A stretch of DNA of 26,441 nucleotides from a virus: positions 1-26,441 of IMG/VR virus record IMGVR_UViG_3300021960_000438; one strand, given 5' to 3'. Positions 14,592-23,983 of the stretch are shown piece after piece. How positions within the stretch are numbered: position 1 is the first letter of the stretch; each line of letters starts with the position of its first letter. A program made the position numbers and the translations under genes. Below the pieces are notes generated by a model. The model was not told the DNA's origin and made no database searches. It worked only from the letters and a program-made list of their open reading frames with translations.

Positions 14592-14709
14592 AAAAGGTTT
14601 GTACTATAATATAAACAAAAGAAAAAAAGCTGGTACTTCAAGAACAAAAAAGAAATCTACAATATCTGCAAAGGCTTATAAAAACATGAAGTCTGGATTT
14701 AAAAAATAG
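14584..14709 (+). CDS. Micro-gene: conserved basic phage protein (KKGLY family)
   Basis: 41 residues opening MAKKGLYYNINKRKKAGTS and ending SAKAYKNMKSGFKK. The MAKKGLY-N-I...(K/R)KKAG...A-K-A-(Y/F)K pattern matches a tiny basic protein found in many T7-like and marine phages, often beside DUF6321-like genes. Function unknown. It is the last plus-strand gene before the convergent minus operon and its end overlaps the DnaA-like gene by 11 bases. Confidence 0.65.
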   Translation: MAKKGLYYNINKRKKAGTSRTKKKSTISAKAYKNMKSGFKK

Positions 14710-15190
14710 TTTCTTTTAATTCTGTAAACTCTTGCCAGATGCTTTGACCAGCATCCCAAAATCTTCGCTTATCCTTTTTCATTTCTATTGAATGTAAAAC
14801 TGTAGTATGATCTTGTCCAAAATATCTACCAATATCTGTAAGGTTCATGTTATATTTTTCATACAAGATGTTGTGAATAATGTTTCTTGCTCTAACTATA
14901 TCTTGTGTTCTAACTTTACTCATTAAACTTTTTTTGTGTACCTCATAACGAACACAAACTCTATTAATAATACTGTCAATAATTCTTGAATTAGGTTTGG
15001 CAAATGAATAACCAATAATTCTTCTTGGTTTATAAAACTCTGGACTTCTTTTTTTACAATGTATCTTGGCTAACTTATAACCATTCTTAAATGCGTTCTT
15101 GTATATTTTCTTTTCTTTAAAAGTTAAATCACGATAATGTCCTGCTCTCATTGCAAGTTTAATTTCTGTAAACACTTTATTTTTAGTCAT
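14699..15190 (-). CDS. DnaA C-terminal (domain IV)-like DNA-binding protein
   Basis: A 163-residue protein with no ATPase domain. From about residue 72 it has the DnaA domain IV layout: IINRVCVRYEVHKKSLMSKVR, RARNIIHNILYEKY, LTDIGRYFGQDHTTVLHS. The last stretch is the DnaA signature helix (GxDHTTVLH, residues 125-134) that reads DnaA boxes. The N-terminal 70 residues are basic and helical (KEKKIYKNAFKNGYKLAK) and unrecognised. Start ATG is backed by aggggatct. It is the last gene of the minus operon. It may bind host or phage DnaA boxes to recruit or block the initiation machinery, or act as a regulator. The domain call is firm; the direction of action is not known. Confidence 0.85.
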   Translation of the reverse strand: MTKNKVFTEIKLAMRAGHYRDLTFKEKKIYKNAFKNGYKLAKIHCKKRSPEFYKPRRIIGYSFAKPNSRIIDSIINRVCVRYEVHKKSLMSKVRTQDIVRARNIIHNILYEKYNMNLTDIGRYFGQDHTTVLHSIEMKKDKRRFWDAGQSIWQEFTELKETIF

Positions 15191-15402: not shown

Positions 15403-15565
15403 CCTTCTCCTTTTTTACTGTTGTAAAATCAATCCTCAAATTATCAATTTTACATTCTACAAGTTCTCCACTATTGGACACATTTGCAGCTTTCTCAACA
15501 TCATCAAATAGTTCTGTCATTTCAAAATGACACTCACCATTAATAATTCTCTTAACTTTTGTCAT
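15311..15565 (-). CDS. Unknown 84-residue acidic protein
   Basis: Starts ATGACAAAAG with aaggat upstream and overlaps the previous stop (ATGA). The first ~52 residues (MTKVKRIINGECHFEMTELF, then a helix and a KIDNLRIDF strand) look like a folded domain. The last ~32 are low-complexity charged/Ser-rich (SSAEVQRSSSEETRKVP) and coincide with the out-of-frame coding of the next gene, so this tail is probably a by-product of the overlap. No family recognised. Confidence 0.5.
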   Translation of the reverse strand: MTKVKRIINGECHFEMTELFDDVEKAANVSNSGELVECKIDNLRIDFTTVKKEKDERDKNSSAEVQRSSSEETRKVPRSEAESQ

Positions 15566-15864
15566 ACTTTATCCTTTTTGGCAACCTCTTTTTTGTGTAT
15601 CTCTTTAGTCATCTTGTTATATATACTTAAATCAGTATAATTATCGGATTTAAAATTTCGTGTTGATCTATATAGCTTTAGTGCCATCATTAATTGACCT
15701 ACTTGATGTGGCTTAATTCTTTTTTTTAAATTGTCTGCCAAGACAATCGTAAACATTTCAGCTAACATAATAAAGTTCTCTTGATAATTACCATAATCTT
15801 TTTGGCGATCATTAATAATCTTTTTCTCTATCTCTTGGTCTATGTCTGTTATTTTCTTATCCAT
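15562..15864 (-). CDS. DUF6378-like protein
   Basis: A 100-residue helical protein. INDRQKDYGNYQENFIMLAE, then KKRIKPHQVGQLMMALKLYR and a DNYTDLSIYN segment. R-x-x-x-YG-x-x-x-x-NF ... P-x-x-V-x-x-x-MxxLKxxR ... DNYxD is the signature of the phage family I know as DUF6378, whose all-helical fold and conserved acidic residues recall MazG-type nucleotide pyrophosphohydrolases, though that activity is unproven. It lies in the early DNA-metabolism operon, consistent with a nucleotide-related role. No good ribosome-binding site is visible. Confidence 0.7.
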   Translation of the reverse strand: MDKKITDIDQEIEKKIINDRQKDYGNYQENFIMLAEMFTIVLADNLKKRIKPHQVGQLMMALKLYRSTRNFKSDNYTDLSIYNKMTKEIHKKEVAKKDKV

Positions 15865-16280: not shown

Positions 16281-16919
16281 TTACTGACCCTTGTTTAATT
16301 GCAACTCTCTAGTATCAGCAACATCTTTTATTTGTTGATAAACTTTAGTGTTGTTTTTTATTAGATATTGAATGTGATCAGAATATTTCTCTGCTAAAAT
16401 ATTAAACTCTTTCATATTTTTAGCTGACTTAATCTCATTCTTTATATCTTCTACTTCAATACTATCATCAGTATAAGTAGGTTCTTCTATAGATTGCTCT
16501 ACAGAATTTTGGTCAAACGGAACAGCATTGTAGCCATCCTCATCTTTGATACCAGTTTTAAGATTTAGTAAATTTAGGAACGCATACTTTCTTGAGTATG
16601 ACATAGCATTACCTGTTCCAAACATACTAATATCTCCAAATGATGAGCAACCATCAACAAGTATATGTTGGGTTGGATCATCAACATCATAAACTCGCAT
16701 GGTACATACGACCATTACTTTTTTATAATTGGGTACAATTTCTGTCAGATAATTACAGGTCGCATATAAATTATTATCTAAAAGAGCTTGTGTTGCTACT
16801 TCTTGAACTTTATCGTGTAGGAGAGGTCTAAAATGCATTCCATTTACTTTGTCTCCCTTTATAACATTTTTTGCACTTAAACAGGCATCATGTAGTTTTT
16901 GATATATATTTCTTTTCAT
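16281..16919 (-). CDS. erf: ERF-family single-strand annealing recombinase
   Basis: A 212-residue protein. The N-terminal ~130 residues show the ERF pattern: a YQKLHDACLSAKNVIKGDKV-like opening, a strand pair around YATCNYLTEIV and MVVCTMRVYDV, then the hallmark GTGNAMSYSRKYAFLNLL at 101-118 and a DEDGY turn. The rest is a helical, acidic tail. ERF proteins anneal complementary single strands and promote circularisation or recombination of linear phage DNA. Start at 16919 has aaggaaaca in front. It is encoded with a PD-(D/E)XK exonuclease candidate upstream, the usual exonuclease-annealase pairing. Confidence 0.85.
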   Translation of the reverse strand: MKRNIYQKLHDACLSAKNVIKGDKVNGMHFRPLLHDKVQEVATQALLDNNLYATCNYLTEIVPNYKKVMVVCTMRVYDVDDPTQHILVDGCSSFGDISMFGTGNAMSYSRKYAFLNLLNLKTGIKDEDGYNAVPFDQNSVEQSIEEPTYTDDSIEVEDIKNEIKSAKNMKEFNILAEKYSDHIQYLIKNNTKVYQQIKDVADTRELQLNKGQ

Positions 16920-17047: not shown

Positions 17048-18058
17048 TTATTGTTGTTGTTTAATTCCCCATAAATTAGTTATGAGTTTTTCTTGTTCTG
17101 GTGCTAGATCCTTATAATAAAAAGGATGATATATATCTGGTGGCTCACACATTTGTGCAAGTTCAGATAGACTTCCTTTGCAGAACATAATCATACGTTC
17201 CCAAAGTAAAATCTTATCAACCATTTTATAGTAAAGAAATTCCAGATGGTCTTTCTTCATTAACTCATGTGTCTGATCAAAAATAATATGTTCCTTATCA
17301 TTAGTATAAACTAGGTAAGGTATCTTCTTGGTACACATATAGTAGAACGAAGTCTGTGTAAGGTTATCTGTTGTAGGTTCAGTTGGCAATGCTTGACTAC
17401 TCATTGTCCACTCTTCCTTGTTCTTAACCTTTCTAATATTGGGTGGCTTTGTTTTTAATTCTATAAATACTTTATCTGTAAGATAATCTACCTTACCTAA
17501 AATATCTTTTATCATTGTCATTTCTTTTTTTCTTACATGATACTCACAAATTAAGTTGTCATCTTTAACAATATCTTTAACAACTTTTTCTGTAACACCT
17601 ATACAATCAATCGCATACTCAACCATTTTTTCTCTGGCAAATTTATCTTTGTTGTCTACCGGTGGTTTTTCGTTTATCATGCCGAGTTCTGTTTGAAAAA
17701 TTTTATTAAACTCTCTATCCCATTTAGGTTCTTTCATGGTAGATGTTTTCCAAATCTCATGTCCAATTAATTTTTGTACTGTGTTATTAACTAGATTGCC
17801 AAAGTTAGCTTTATATCTAAATGCGAAAGTTCTTCTGACATCTTGTGGAAAAGAATAATTAATTAAGTTCTTTGCCATAGGTGATGACGTTGATGAGTAG
17901 GACCAATGGTCTAAACCTTTACCACCATTAAATATTGAAAATGCGTCTTCTATTAGTTCTTCATTTTTTTTTGTTATAGGGTAATCAAAATGTTTTCCTA
18001 CAATTCTATCTGATTTACCTAAATATCTTACTTTAGTTTTGATTTTTTCTTTTTTCAT
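17048..18058 (-). CDS. PD-(D/E)XK (RecB/lambda-exonuclease-like) nuclease
   Basis: 336 residues from ATG at 18058, preferred to a GTG at 18076 because aaggaact precedes it and the -10 box lies over the GTG. The core reads ILGKVDYLTDKVFIELKTKP with D191, E200 and K202, the catalytic D...E-x-K of this superfamily. It is followed by QTSFYYMCTKK, matching the Q-x-x-x-Y motif of RecB/Cas4/exonuclease members at Q235. An N-terminal G-x-L-V-N-N helix stands where many relatives have GxxxH. It probably resects double-stranded ends for the annealase encoded downstream. It is the first gene of the minus operon, directly behind a good sigma70-like promoter. Confidence 0.8.
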   Translation of the reverse strand: MKKEKIKTKVRYLGKSDRIVGKHFDYPITKKNEELIEDAFSIFNGGKGLDHWSYSSTSSPMAKNLINYSFPQDVRRTFAFRYKANFGNLVNNTVQKLIGHEIWKTSTMKEPKWDREFNKIFQTELGMINEKPPVDNKDKFAREKMVEYAIDCIGVTEKVVKDIVKDDNLICEYHVRKKEMTMIKDILGKVDYLTDKVFIELKTKPPNIRKVKNKEEWTMSSQALPTEPTTDNLTQTSFYYMCTKKIPYLVYTNDKEHIIFDQTHELMKKDHLEFLYYKMVDKILLWERMIMFCKGSLSELAQMCEPPDIYHPFYYKDLAPEQEKLITNLWGIKQQQ

Positions 18059-18068
18059 AAGTTCCTTT

Positions 18069-18077
18069 TTTTCCACA
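18069..18077 (+). promoter_or_regulatory. DnaA-box-like site TTTTCCACA at the leftward promoter
   Basis: TTTTCCACA matches the relaxed DnaA consensus TTWTNCACA and lies between the -10 box and the start point of the leftward promoter. A protein bound here would block that promoter, whose last gene encodes a DnaA domain IV protein. At this base composition a few such matches are expected by chance in the window (others at 14872, 17844, 22465). Confidence 0.35.
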
Positions 18078-18106
18078 TTATATACACTAATTAATTTACT
18101 TGTAAA
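18077..18106 (-). promoter_or_regulatory. Sigma70-like promoter for the leftward early operon
   Basis: On the minus strand TTTACA (complement of 18101-18106) and TATAAT (complement of 18077-18082) are separated by 18 bases. This is a perfect -10 and a one-mismatch -35. Transcription would start near 18070, leaving a short leader with the aaggaa site just before the exonuclease ATG at 18058. Confidence 0.65.
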
Positions 18107-18961: not shown

Positions 18962-19339
18962 ATGGCTAGACAAACTTATGCTTTCAGTAATGGAAGTTAT
19001 AACGATTGGCATAGAAAATATGATGGCATTGCCATGATTGATATTGACAGTATTGAGTGCTGTCCACGTTGCTACGAACCTTTAGCTATAATTGAGACGT
19101 GTTATGATAAAGGACAGAAATATAAGGCTACAACCCTGTCAAAGATAGTCGCTAGTCGCTTAAATATACCCTGTTTTTTAGTATTCTATAAGAATTTGAC
19201 CCCAACTACCCTAACTTTCCGGATCAAGCGAATAACAAGCTCTCCGACAGACTTTGAGTTAATGAATGAAGATCAATGGGTTGCCATCTTGCTAGACCTA
19301 CAACAAAATCATAGGAAAGAATGTAAGAATGAACAATAG
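18962..19339 (+). CDS. Unknown protein with D-x-D...E and CxxC motifs (possible nuclease-like fold)
   Basis: A 125-residue protein. NDWHRKYDGIAMIDIDSIEC sits at residues 14-33, then CPRCYEPLAIIETCYDKG and a helix ATTLSKIVASRLNIPCFLVF with a strand. A WHR, an IDIDxxE strand, a C-x2-C and an A-I-I-E strand, then a T..K..A helix, recall a group of phage proteins I associate loosely with PD-(D/E)XK-like folds, although the usual E-x-K is E-T-C here. Function therefore open. It sits immediately before the replication-initiator-like gene, which its end overlaps by 11 bases. Confidence 0.5.
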   Translation: MARQTYAFSNGSYNDWHRKYDGIAMIDIDSIECCPRCYEPLAIIETCYDKGQKYKATTLSKIVASRLNIPCFLVFYKNLTPTTLTFRIKRITSSPTDFELMNEDQWVAILLDLQQNHRKECKNEQ

Positions 19340-20024
19340 CCGAGCCTTTTTGCACATCACCTACAAACTGTATGGACACCTTGATAAATTAAGTGGTACT
19401 AAAAAATCTAATTGTTTGAACTGCTATTTATCTTTAATGAAACACGCATGGAAAAAGAATAACTATGAGTGTGGTCTGCGTTATTCTACTGTTGTAAAAG
19501 AAACTAAATTATCACGTATAACTGTCAGACGTACCCTTGATACTCTGGAAAAATTGCACGTTATATCAACTGTACGTGGTAGATCTGGTAAAACCTATAA
19601 AATCAACCAATTATTTATTAAAACTGAATCAGATAGCTCAATTATATACAATAATAAAAATAAGAAGTATAAAATTGATCACTCTAATGTATATAAAAGA
19701 GCAGTATTAGTAGAAGACATTAATACATTAAATATAGAAAATATTATTAGAGATAATAGAGGTGATATGGATAGTTTAATACTAAACTTATCAAAGCTCC
19801 CCCTGTCAGAACTTAATTTAGATACTAATAACCCATACTATGTAAAGTTAGCTAAAGAGAAAAAAGCTGAACTAGATCGTGAAAGTAAGGCAACCTATGT
19901 ACATCCTCAAAAAATAATTAATGAATTAACCAAGATTAAAAAAAATAGTAACCCAAGATATAGGGAAAAGGTTGCGTTCAATAAACGTAATAATCTTGAT
20001 TATAAAGGAAGACCTAAAAAGTAA
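19329..20024 (+). CDS. Winged-helix probable replication initiator
   Basis: A 231-residue protein. The first ~95 residues form a winged-helix domain: LNCYLSLMKHAWKKNN, LRYSTVVKETKLSRITVRRT, LDTLEKLHVISTVRGRSGKT. This layout (ST/S-x-x-T-V-x-R-x-L-xx-Lexx-g-I) is that of phage replication proteins such as O-like and RepA-type initiators, and of DnaD-like primosome proteins. The rest is polar, basic at the end (FNKRNNLDYKGRPKK) and lacks helicase or primase motifs. Aggaaag precedes the start. It probably recognises a phage origin and recruits host replication proteins. A transcription-factor role cannot be excluded. Confidence 0.6.
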   Translation: MNNSRAFLHITYKLYGHLDKLSGTKKSNCLNCYLSLMKHAWKKNNYECGLRYSTVVKETKLSRITVRRTLDTLEKLHVISTVRGRSGKTYKINQLFIKTESDSSIIYNNKNKKYKIDHSNVYKRAVLVEDINTLNIENIIRDNRGDMDSLILNLSKLPLSELNLDTNNPYYVKLAKEKKAELDRESKATYVHPQKIINELTKIKKNSNPRYREKVAFNKRNNLDYKGRPKK

Positions 20025-22124: not shown

Positions 22125-22382
22125 AAAAGATTTAATTATTATTAGTGTGATAATATTGCAACAAGTGTTGTATATTTACAGTTTAGAATGATTTAATGTA
22201 ATGTGTTAGGTGTATAAAAGTTGGTATCCATTTATAAACAGCAACCGATTTTTTTCTCACGTCATAACAATCGACAACAATTTATTTAATTAAATGCTTT
22301 ATTACCGGTAACTTTTATTTATCGCTAATCTAATTAAGATATATTTTACCTAGTATTGTCTATGTTTTTGTTTTTTAGATAG

Positions 22383-22394
22383 GGGGTATACCCC
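22383..22394. repeat. Perfect 12-base palindrome GGGGTATACCCC
   Basis: A GC-bearing perfect palindrome in a very AT-rich neighbourhood, with one more G before it. Possible operator, packaging or processing site. Confidence 0.6.
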
Positions 22395-22433
22395 ATATTT
22401 TTACCGCAGGTTTCTTTCTATATATACACCGGA

Positions 22434-22452
22434 CTGTAGGACACCCTTACAG
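22434..22452. repeat. Small hairpin in GC-richer island
   Basis: CTGTAGG (22434-22440) pairs with CCTTACAG (22445-22452) around an ACAC loop with one bulged base. No U-run follows directly, so a terminator is not obvious. Confidence 0.4.
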
Positions 22453-22464
22453 CCACCCACACCT

Positions 22465-22473
22465 TTATACACA
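22465..22473 (+). promoter_or_regulatory. DnaA-box match TTATACACA
   Basis: Exact match to TTATNCACA in non-coding DNA. A one-mismatch copy in the opposite orientation lies at 22209-22217. Single matches occur by chance at this base composition. Confidence 0.3.
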
Positions 22474-22520
22474 TACATCTTTTCTGTTTTATTTTTTTTA
22501 AAATGCACTAGATGTAGTAT

Positions 22521-22709
22521 ATGGATTACTTTAGTGCAGACGATTTAGATTCAGTTGCTTACATAGAAGAAGGCTCAAACAATGTTATATTAAAGTTTTA
22601 TGGCTTTCCCAATAAACTAGCAGCCGATCTATTTATCAGCTATGCTATGCTCAATATGGGTTTTGATTACCAACCTGTATCTGGTACAAAATCCGACATG
22701 ATACACTAA
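22521..22709 (+). CDS. Small protein preceding large terminase, unknown
   Basis: A 62-residue acidic protein: MDYFSADDLDSVAYIEEGSN, NVILKFYGFPNKLAADLFIS, ending in a flexible TKSDMIH. A strand-turn-strand then a helix with aromatic residues suggests a small alpha/beta fold. No ribosome-binding site is evident, so it could be read from a near-leaderless message. Two bases separate it from the large terminase. Possibly a terminase accessory factor. Confidence 0.5.
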   Translation: MDYFSADDLDSVAYIEEGSNNVILKFYGFPNKLAADLFISYAMLNMGFDYQPVSGTKSDMIH

Positions 22710-22711
22710 AT

Positions 22712-23983
22712 ATGGATATTAAAATACCTTACACACCAAGGAAGCATCAAGCTCACTTGCACAGACAGATAGATAAACACAGATGGAATGTACTTGTATG
22801 CCATAGAAGATTCGGCAAAACAGTTTGCATGATCAATCACCTAATTAGGTCAGCACTACTGTCCAAACTAAAGAACCCTAGGTTTGCCTACATTGCACCC
22901 ACCTTTAAACAAGCAAAGTCTATTGCATGGGATTACATGAAACAGTTTACAGCAAAGATACCTCACACTAAATTTAACGAAACAGAACTACGTGTAGACC
23001 TACCTAATGGCTCTCGTATCACCTTGCTAGGCTCGGAATCTCCAGATGGGTTAAGAGGTATATACCTTGATGGATGTGTCATTGATGAGTACGCAAACGT
23101 AAACAGTAAATTGTTTCCAGAAATAATTAGACCCGCATTATCAGATCGTAAAGGCTACTGTGTGTTTATTGGCACACCAATGGGAATGAACAATAACTTT
23201 TATGAGTTGTACCAACACGCACAAGGTGCGGAAGATTGGTTTAACTACAAAGCAAAAGCATCAGATACCAAGATCGTAGACAATGATGAGTTGGTCAAGG
23301 CAAAAGAAGTAATGGGTGAGAAGAAGTATAACCAAGAGTTTGAATGTGATTGGATTGCTAACATTGAAGGTGCAGTATATGGAGATGTGATTGCAAAACT
23401 AGATGATGATAAACAGCTTACAAGAGTTCCATACGATCCTGCCTTACCAGTATCTACAGCATGGGATCTTGGGGTCTCCGACCACAGTAGTATAATATTC
23501 TATCAGCAGTTAGGTAGAAGCATTAATATAATAGATTACCACGAAGAGAAAGGTCAAGGTTTACCATACTACATTAAGATGATTGATCAGAAAGAGTATG
23601 TCTACAAAGATCACTTTGCACCACACGACATTGAAGTTACAGAGTTTGGCAATGGCAAAACTCGGAGAGAGGTCGCCACCCAATTAGGATTAAGGTTTAA
23701 AGTCGTTCCAAAAATTCCACTAGAGGATGGCATACACGCAACTACAATGATCTTACCTAGATGTTATATTGATACTGACCATTGCAAAAAGTTAATAGAT
23801 GCGTTAAGACATTACCACAGGAAGTATATTGATAAAAATAGAATGTTTAGATCAAAGCCTGTACACGATTGGAGTTCTCATGCTTGTGATGCAATGCGTT
23901 ACCTAGCAGTTGGACTACAAGAAATTAATACTAGACAAACTGCTCCACAAAGTATAGCAGATAATAGTTATAGAATTATATAG
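22712..23983 (+). CDS. terL: Terminase large subunit
   Basis: A 423-residue protein with both terminase activities. ATPase: Walker A-type CHRRFGKT at 30-37, a PTFKQAKSIAWDY strand-helix, Walker B CVIDEYAN with D125/E126, and the coupling motif GTPMG at 154-158. Nuclease (RNase H-like): D252 in STAWDLGVSDHSS, a second acidic site around D275 and the final D393 in SHACDAMRYLAVG. It forms the packaging motor on the portal, pumping DNA into the head and cutting concatemers. Length is somewhat short for the class but motifs are complete. The base composition is less extreme than that of the structural genes. It belongs to one operon with the portal. Confidence 0.95.
   Translation: MDIKIPYTPRKHQAHLHRQIDKHRWNVLVCHRRFGKTVCMINHLIRSALLSKLKNPRFAYIAPTFKQAKSIAWDYMKQFTAKIPHTKFNETELRVDLPNGSRITLLGSESPDGLRGIYLDGCVIDEYANVNSKLFPEIIRPALSDRKGYCVFIGTPMGMNNNFYELYQHAQGAEDWFNYKAKASDTKIVDNDELVKAKEVMGEKKYNQEFECDWIANIEGAVYGDVIAKLDDDKQLTRVPYDPALPVSTAWDLGVSDHSSIIFYQQLGRSINIIDYHEEKGQGLPYYIKMIDQKEYVYKDHFAPHDIEVTEFGNGKTRREVATQLGLRFKVVPKIPLEDGIHATTMILPRCYIDTDHCKKLIDALRHYHRKYIDKNRMFRSKPVHDWSSHACDAMRYLAVGLQEINTRQTAPQSIADNSYRII

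Follow-up and report, generated by a model that had tools for sequence, protein, structure and literature searches.

GafY of Caulobacter crescentus is a homologue of DnaA domain IV that was named HdaB for its effects on replication. It is described as a protein that binds in front of the gene transfer agent cluster and accessory loci and drives them together with GafZ (PMC9632790). At promoters with a poor -35 element, GafY is reported to contact domains 3-4 of the sigma-70 factor RpoD (PMC11150451). GafA of Rhodobacter has a DnaA-like N-terminus and is described as binding 75-125 bases upstream of the terminase gene (PMC9638019; also PMC6363796).

The window analysed here is the whole 26,441-base IMG/VR virus record IMGVR_UViG_3300021960_000438, which stops within a portal-type gene and represents part of the genome of an HTVC010P-type pelagiphage. 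HTVC010P-type phages infect SAR11 bacteria and are among the most abundant phage groups of the ocean. The gene of interest is not new to this group, because it is already annotated as DnaA-like and has been published as common to HTVC010P-type phages. A freshwater study describes DnaA in every HTVC010P-related genome (PMC6811365), and the GenBank name in most relatives is 'DNA replication initiation (DnaA)' or DnaA-like, with that of HTVC010P itself being hypothetical. What is new in this analysis is a DnaA box that keeps a constant position ahead of the late genes. Neither this box nor a role of the protein in transcription was found described in the literature searched; priority is not claimed, because the coverage of the phage group in that literature is incomplete.

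A DnaA domain IV protein without an ATPase

The open reading frame at 14699-15190 (minus strand) starts with ATG and encodes 163 amino acids, including the motif GQDHTTVLHS. Residues 71-136 match PF08299 (Bac_DnaA_C) with an E value of 1.8e-19 and 69.9 bits against a Pfam cut-off of 31.5, and the corresponding coding stretch, 14783-14980 (minus strand), is found with 65.6 bits (E 9.6e-20). Sequence matches in the PDB are DnaA chains, with 1j1v at the top (E 3.6e-7), and the same entry is ranked first by Foldseek with the predicted model (TM by target 0.82). The C-terminal DnaA box-reading domain proposed in a sequence-only reading of this DNA is thus confirmed. The same reading had seen no AAA+ motifs in the 163 residues, and a Pfam search agrees, detecting neither AAA+ nor any family besides PF08299. 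The full-length DnaA model TIGR00362 scores 58.1 bits, far below its cut-off of 343.9, and the short DnaA-C families of NCBIfam (PRK06030) give 19.0 bits against a cut-off of 148 (NF004686) and 16.9 against 181 (NF004687).

The N-terminus (residues 1-46) is basic, with a net charge of +10 and two predicted helices, and has no Pfam match, which upholds its earlier description as basic and unrecognised. A structure prediction, proposed at the same time, was run with AlphaFold2 on 19 and on 26 viral sequences (mean pLDDT 74.7 and 79.6, respectively) and places helices at residues 5-15 and 24-47, followed by a linker of low confidence and, at 68-162, domain IV, which is predicted with confidence. 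The family phrog_5819 was considered for the N-terminus and rejected (E 0.006 at best, in only 2 of 11 members). Protein alignments used distinct sequences selected from the fetched loci, a subset of them, and yield mean pairwise identities of 0.55 for the N-terminus, 0.35 for the linker and 0.59 for domain IV. By this measure, the N-terminus is conserved to about the degree of domain IV.

In E. coli DnaA, D433 and H434 have base-contact roles. The equivalents of R399, R407, D433, H434, T435 and T436 are invariant across 26 aligned relatives; in the phage protein, R399 corresponds to R94, and D433, H434, T435 and T436 to D127-T130. The position of E. coli R432 is an invariant Q in the 26 aligned pelagiphage proteins. 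R399 enters the minor groove together with S400, and T435 touches bases, in the account given in PMC9638019.

Relatives and gene neighbourhood

A tblastn search with the protein retrieves 32 phage records, 19 of which are HTVC010P-type Pelagibacter phages, each with a match that spans 84% or more of the query; the best is HTVC034P, at 63% identity. In a comparison with ten cultured relatives, the window copy is 35-62% identical to theirs, and PF08299 is matched in all ten complete relatives. The ten complete genomes share one arrangement, in which the gene closes a block of nuclease, ERF, small genes and DnaA-IV, convergent to the late genes. In the window, this block occupies the minus strand. 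Its first gene is a putative nuclease (17048-18076) that has neither a Pfam match over cut-off nor a PHROG match and is identified by position and by its HTVC034P counterpart, named 'putative nuclease'. An ERF-type single-strand annealing protein (16281-16919; PF04404, E 5.4e-8) and a DUF6378 protein (15562-15864; PF19905, E 2.3e-16) lie in the same block. Ahead of it, at 18077-18106 (minus strand), stands a predicted sigma-70-like promoter, TTTACA-18-TATAAT, which matches 11 of 12 consensus positions.

The plus strand encodes a helix-turn-helix (HTH) protein at 19329-20024 that resembles phage replication initiation proteins (phrog_270, E 2.9e-6). It is a second initiator candidate, with counterparts in the same 19 pelagiphage records as the DnaA-IV gene. 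The late operon, also on the plus strand, opens with a 62-residue open reading frame (22521-22709) directly before the terminase large subunit gene, TerL (22712-23983), an order kept in the complete relatives; terminase families are matched by window open reading frames, and the relatives' genes were located by tblastn.

Several other features of the region are of separate interest. A conserved early protein of 125 residues (18962-19339) contains a stretch with DxD as well as CxxC and has no Pfam match; the gene at the corresponding place in Greip and Lederberg, matched by position, is named 'putative oxidoreductase'. Between 20767 and 21358, a T-rich 34-nt direct repeat occurs four times, 154-213 nt apart, around the starts of small minus-strand genes, where the copies perhaps represent shared leader or ribosome-binding regions. 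Among cellular genomes, one locus from 21 pattern matches is a DnaA-IV relative, in a Candidatus Woesearchaeota MAG. This 10.4-kb locus (L100, PBPJ01000001.1) carries an HTVC010P-type block of HTH protein, nuclease-like, DUF6378-like and DnaA-IV genes and most likely comes from a pelagiphage whose contig was binned with archaeal sequences. Many plasmid matches proved to be dnaA genes on large records and were set aside, and L187 was dropped as a LuxR-type chance match.

Replication genes of the phage group

The sequence-only reading had pointed out that no polymerase or helicase is visible. Absence from the window alone proves little, because the record is 26.4 kb long and stops inside the portal gene. 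The observation holds in the relatives. DNA polymerase A (PF00476) and DnaB helicase (PF03796) are each found in none of the ten complete genomes, with positive controls detected, and HTVC034P, for which 59 of 63 coding sequences were scanned, has no polymerase, helicase or primase among 25 listed of 26 Pfam families. No absence is concluded from the PHROG scans, which cover the best 25 of 113 families in one case and of 53 in the other. One of the 39 window open reading frames, other than 18962-19339, has a weak match to an AEP primase (PF23162, E 0.0039). RNA polymerase is not annotated in any of the ten complete relatives. The published account of Skadi-1 describes a phage without DNA polymerase, RNA polymerase, helicase or primase that encodes a lambda-like helicase loader, and states that the host DNA polymerase is used (PMC10504331).

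A DnaA box in a constant position ahead of the late operon

A divergent non-coding region (22125-22520) lies ahead of the late operon and is a candidate late promoter and/or origin; it was examined in an 11-genome alignment and by column conservation. Within it lie a DnaA box, a TATATATA element and a further conserved element that runs up to the ATG. The box, TTATACACA at 22465-22473 (plus strand), is conserved in position in the relatives and is a candidate binding site. The TATATATA element and the 17-mer at the ATG are more strongly conserved than the box. The leader also holds a TATATATATACAtGGGA element, and the near-invariant 17-mer, ACTAGATGTAGTATATG, closes with the ATG that starts the first late open reading frame; no obvious ribosome-binding site is present in the region of the 17-mer.

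Leader candidates comprise the window and 235 TerL loci from IMG/VR, among the matches listed in three sets of 80 (n=236). Of these, 212 were kept for having the 17-mer anchor ending in the first late ATG and at least 113 bp upstream, and 24 were dropped. Deduplication of the 212 together with ten cultured phages leaves 157 distinct leaders. From them, 29 representatives with little 8-mer overlap were chosen; two (L131 and L313) were dropped for having the anchor in coding sequence, which gives 27 lineages. Counts are based on position, because automatic alignment split a CA-rich stretch and under-aligned the box.

The pattern TTATNCACA starts 54-68 nt upstream of the ATG of the first late open reading frame. 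Within this fixed 15-nt interval, an exact box is present in 9 of the 27 lineages and a box with at most one mismatch in 21, leaving six without a box within one mismatch. In 500 shuffles, the corresponding lineage counts average 0.09 (at most 2) and 1.37 (at most 5), figures that overstate the evidence because the sequences share descent. Of the 157 distinct leaders, 70 contain an exact box; in another 70 the best match has one mismatch, and in 17 it has more. Part of the one-mismatch class is due to chance, because this count spans the whole 113 bp. Exact copies vary only at the free position (A in 52, C in 17 and G in 1 of the 70), and none of the 157 leaders has an exact box on the opposite strand. 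TTATNCACA ranks first among 560 permutations of its letters. In an earlier sample of 63 distinct regions, reduced to 51 and then to 50, with ten cultured phages added, it ranked 12th among all such leader-region patterns, behind the TATATATA element and others. Shared descent raises all of these counts and ranks.

The leader box is a single site before a single late operon, with no box array. Across 11 genomes, exact boxes number 6 in 5,259 bp of leaders and 11 in 370,582 bp elsewhere. A genome-wide enrichment of DnaA boxes was considered and rejected, each of these 11 genomes having 0-3 copies of TTATNCACA, no more than chance would give. DnaA sites in alphaproteobacterial phages are described as not unevenly spread in a published survey (PMC9437464). 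A search for an iteron array around the leader and the HTH gene turned up only the T-rich direct repeats among the small genes. In none of the 11 genomes do the 120 bp preceding the late operon contain a sigma-70 consensus match above shuffle level, and promoters of the nuclease block beat shuffles at P<0.05 in only 2 of 11; the contrast in sigma-70 promoters between the two operons is weak.

Two further sites were noted. The DnaA-IV gene itself contains the other exact DnaA box of the window (14872-14880), over codons for conserved residues; this box is also found in HTVC010P and probably reflects coding constraint. An inverted repeat of the GATAA/TTATC type occupies 22304-22327 in the leader and has counterparts in several relatives. 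It was discarded as a general phage site, with one copy in many leaders, copies elsewhere too and about one per genome expected by chance.

Possible roles of the protein

Conservation of the box at one fixed place of the phage genome speaks for a role in cis, and the protein, judged from sequence comparisons, has phage DNA as a likelier target than host DNA. Because of the analogy with GafY and GafA, a GafY-like activator of late transcription working via the leader box is tentatively proposed and slightly favoured over an initiator; the two roles are not mutually exclusive. The host sigma-70 polymerase would transcribe the early/middle block that carries the DnaA-IV gene. The product, an ATPase-less DnaA-box binder working on the phage's own DNA, would then attach through domain IV to the single box a short way ahead of the late operon. 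Its conserved basic N-terminal helices may touch a host partner at the box, namely the host RNA polymerase holoenzyme, and the late operon (terminase, head, tail and lysis) would be turned on much as GafY turns on the Caulobacter gene transfer agent cluster. We infer that this protein, rather than host DnaA, is on the box, with transcription as the outcome. The box sits where a promoter is expected, ahead of one long late operon. The invariant DNA-contact residues, the missing sigma-70 match before the late operon and the lack of an annotated RNA polymerase in the complete relatives also favour an activator. Against an activator, the box could belong to host DnaA, the AT-rich divergent region would equally suit an origin, and the DnaA-IV gene shares its block with recombination genes and bears a GenBank name that refers to replication initiation. 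Further points against it are the six lineages with no box within one mismatch, the stronger conservation of other leader elements, the even spread of DnaA sites in the alphaproteobacterial survey (PMC9437464), the weak sigma-70 contrast, the R399 difference from GafA and the lack of a GafZ partner among the families listed for HTVC034P. A bolder version is doubtful: the single DnaA box would take the place of a -35 element, the ATPase-less domain IV would be the late-gene switch of the phage group, and GafY and GafA would have been domesticated from such an activator.

A role as replication initiator or helper, somewhat less probable than late activation but still a serious contender, would have domain IV mark an origin at the leader box while the N-terminus recruits the host helicase or loader. 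The protein might do so alone or together with the HTH protein at 19329-20024, and host polymerase III would copy the phage. The missing polymerase A and DnaB genes in all ten complete relatives, the host DNA polymerase use stated for Skadi-1 (PMC10504331), the company of ERF, nuclease and DUF6378 genes, the GenBank name 'DNA replication initiation' and the position of the box beside TATATATATA and T-rich stretches are all in keeping with replication. However, the region has one box only, with no cluster or iteron-like array, the protein has no AAA+ module for DNA melting, and the genome carries a separate initiator-like gene (phrog_270). Moreover, the homologue HdaB/GafY was first read in this way and later moved to transcription (PMC9632790). 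The suggestion in the sequence-only reading that host machinery is recruited to phage DNA stands in part. The phage box at one fixed place supports it indirectly, but replication is not the sole reading. A second initiator-like HTH gene exists, and GafY, the closest stand-alone domain IV protein with experimental work behind it, is a transcription activator.

The box may instead be used by host DnaA or form part of a packaging signal, with the phage protein binding something else. This is unlikely: the leader does adjoin TerL, and elements that do not resemble a DnaA box are conserved there too, but the conserved word fits a DnaA box whose exact copies vary at the degenerate position, and the protein is carried by all 19 pelagiphage records found. 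Slightly more improbable still is a form of the other earlier suggestion, competition with host DnaA at the chromosomal origin, in which the protein would fill the DnaA boxes of the SAR11 origin and stop host initiation, with no role on phage DNA. It keeps the DnaA-type contact residues and is missing the parts that open an origin, as such a competitor might. Yet this would leave the conserved phage box unexplained, and what GafY does to the host chromosome has since been put down to gene transfer agent production (PMC9632790). Host-origin titration ranks below both roles at the leader box.

How late genes are controlled matters in these phages, which have no annotated late activator and no polymerase of their own. 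For these reasons, and because cultured hosts with isolates exist, the function of the protein can be tested. If it is a late activator, the 'DNA replication initiation' labels on many small phage DnaA-C proteins would be misleading, and phage late control would be linked to that of gene transfer agents. Should it prove to be an initiator, it would be one that has no ATPase and passes phage DNA on to the host replisome.

Comparison with known systems

The closest described proteins are the DnaA-like proteins of HTVC010P-type phages, such as gp20 of HTVC034P and the 'DnaA-like protein' of Skadi-1, which share family and gene order with the window gene, as does the 'DnaA' of freshwater HTVC010P-related phages (PMC6811365). 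With chromosomal DnaA, the phage protein has in common the domain IV fold and the base-contact residues, but it does not have domains I-III and carries Q at the R432 equivalent. Domain IV likewise occurs without an ATPase in Microcystis phage Mae-JY35, gp7 of EBPR podovirus 2, many BFVD entries and phrog_27829, with different N-termini and weak similarity outside the domain. Among viral proteins, Foldseek finds many entries named 'DnaA C-terminal'; the 50 matches listed have lengths of 90-205 residues. Phage proteins made of DnaA domain IV are numerous.

GafY, compared by its description, is like the phage protein a domain IV protein without AAA+ in an alphaproteobacterial setting. It differs in that the N-terminus of the phage protein is unmatched and no GafZ/DUF6456 neighbour was found: this partner is not among 25 listed of 26 Pfam families of HTVC034P (59 of 63 coding sequences scanned), nor among the 7 families of the 39 window open reading frames. 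GafA is reported to have E instead of the R399 equivalent that the phage protein keeps (PMC9638019), and the DNA specificity of the two should differ because of this replacement. The targets described for GafY and for the N-terminal domain of Rhodobacter GafA nevertheless lie before a terminase-led cluster, as does the candidate box of the phage protein.
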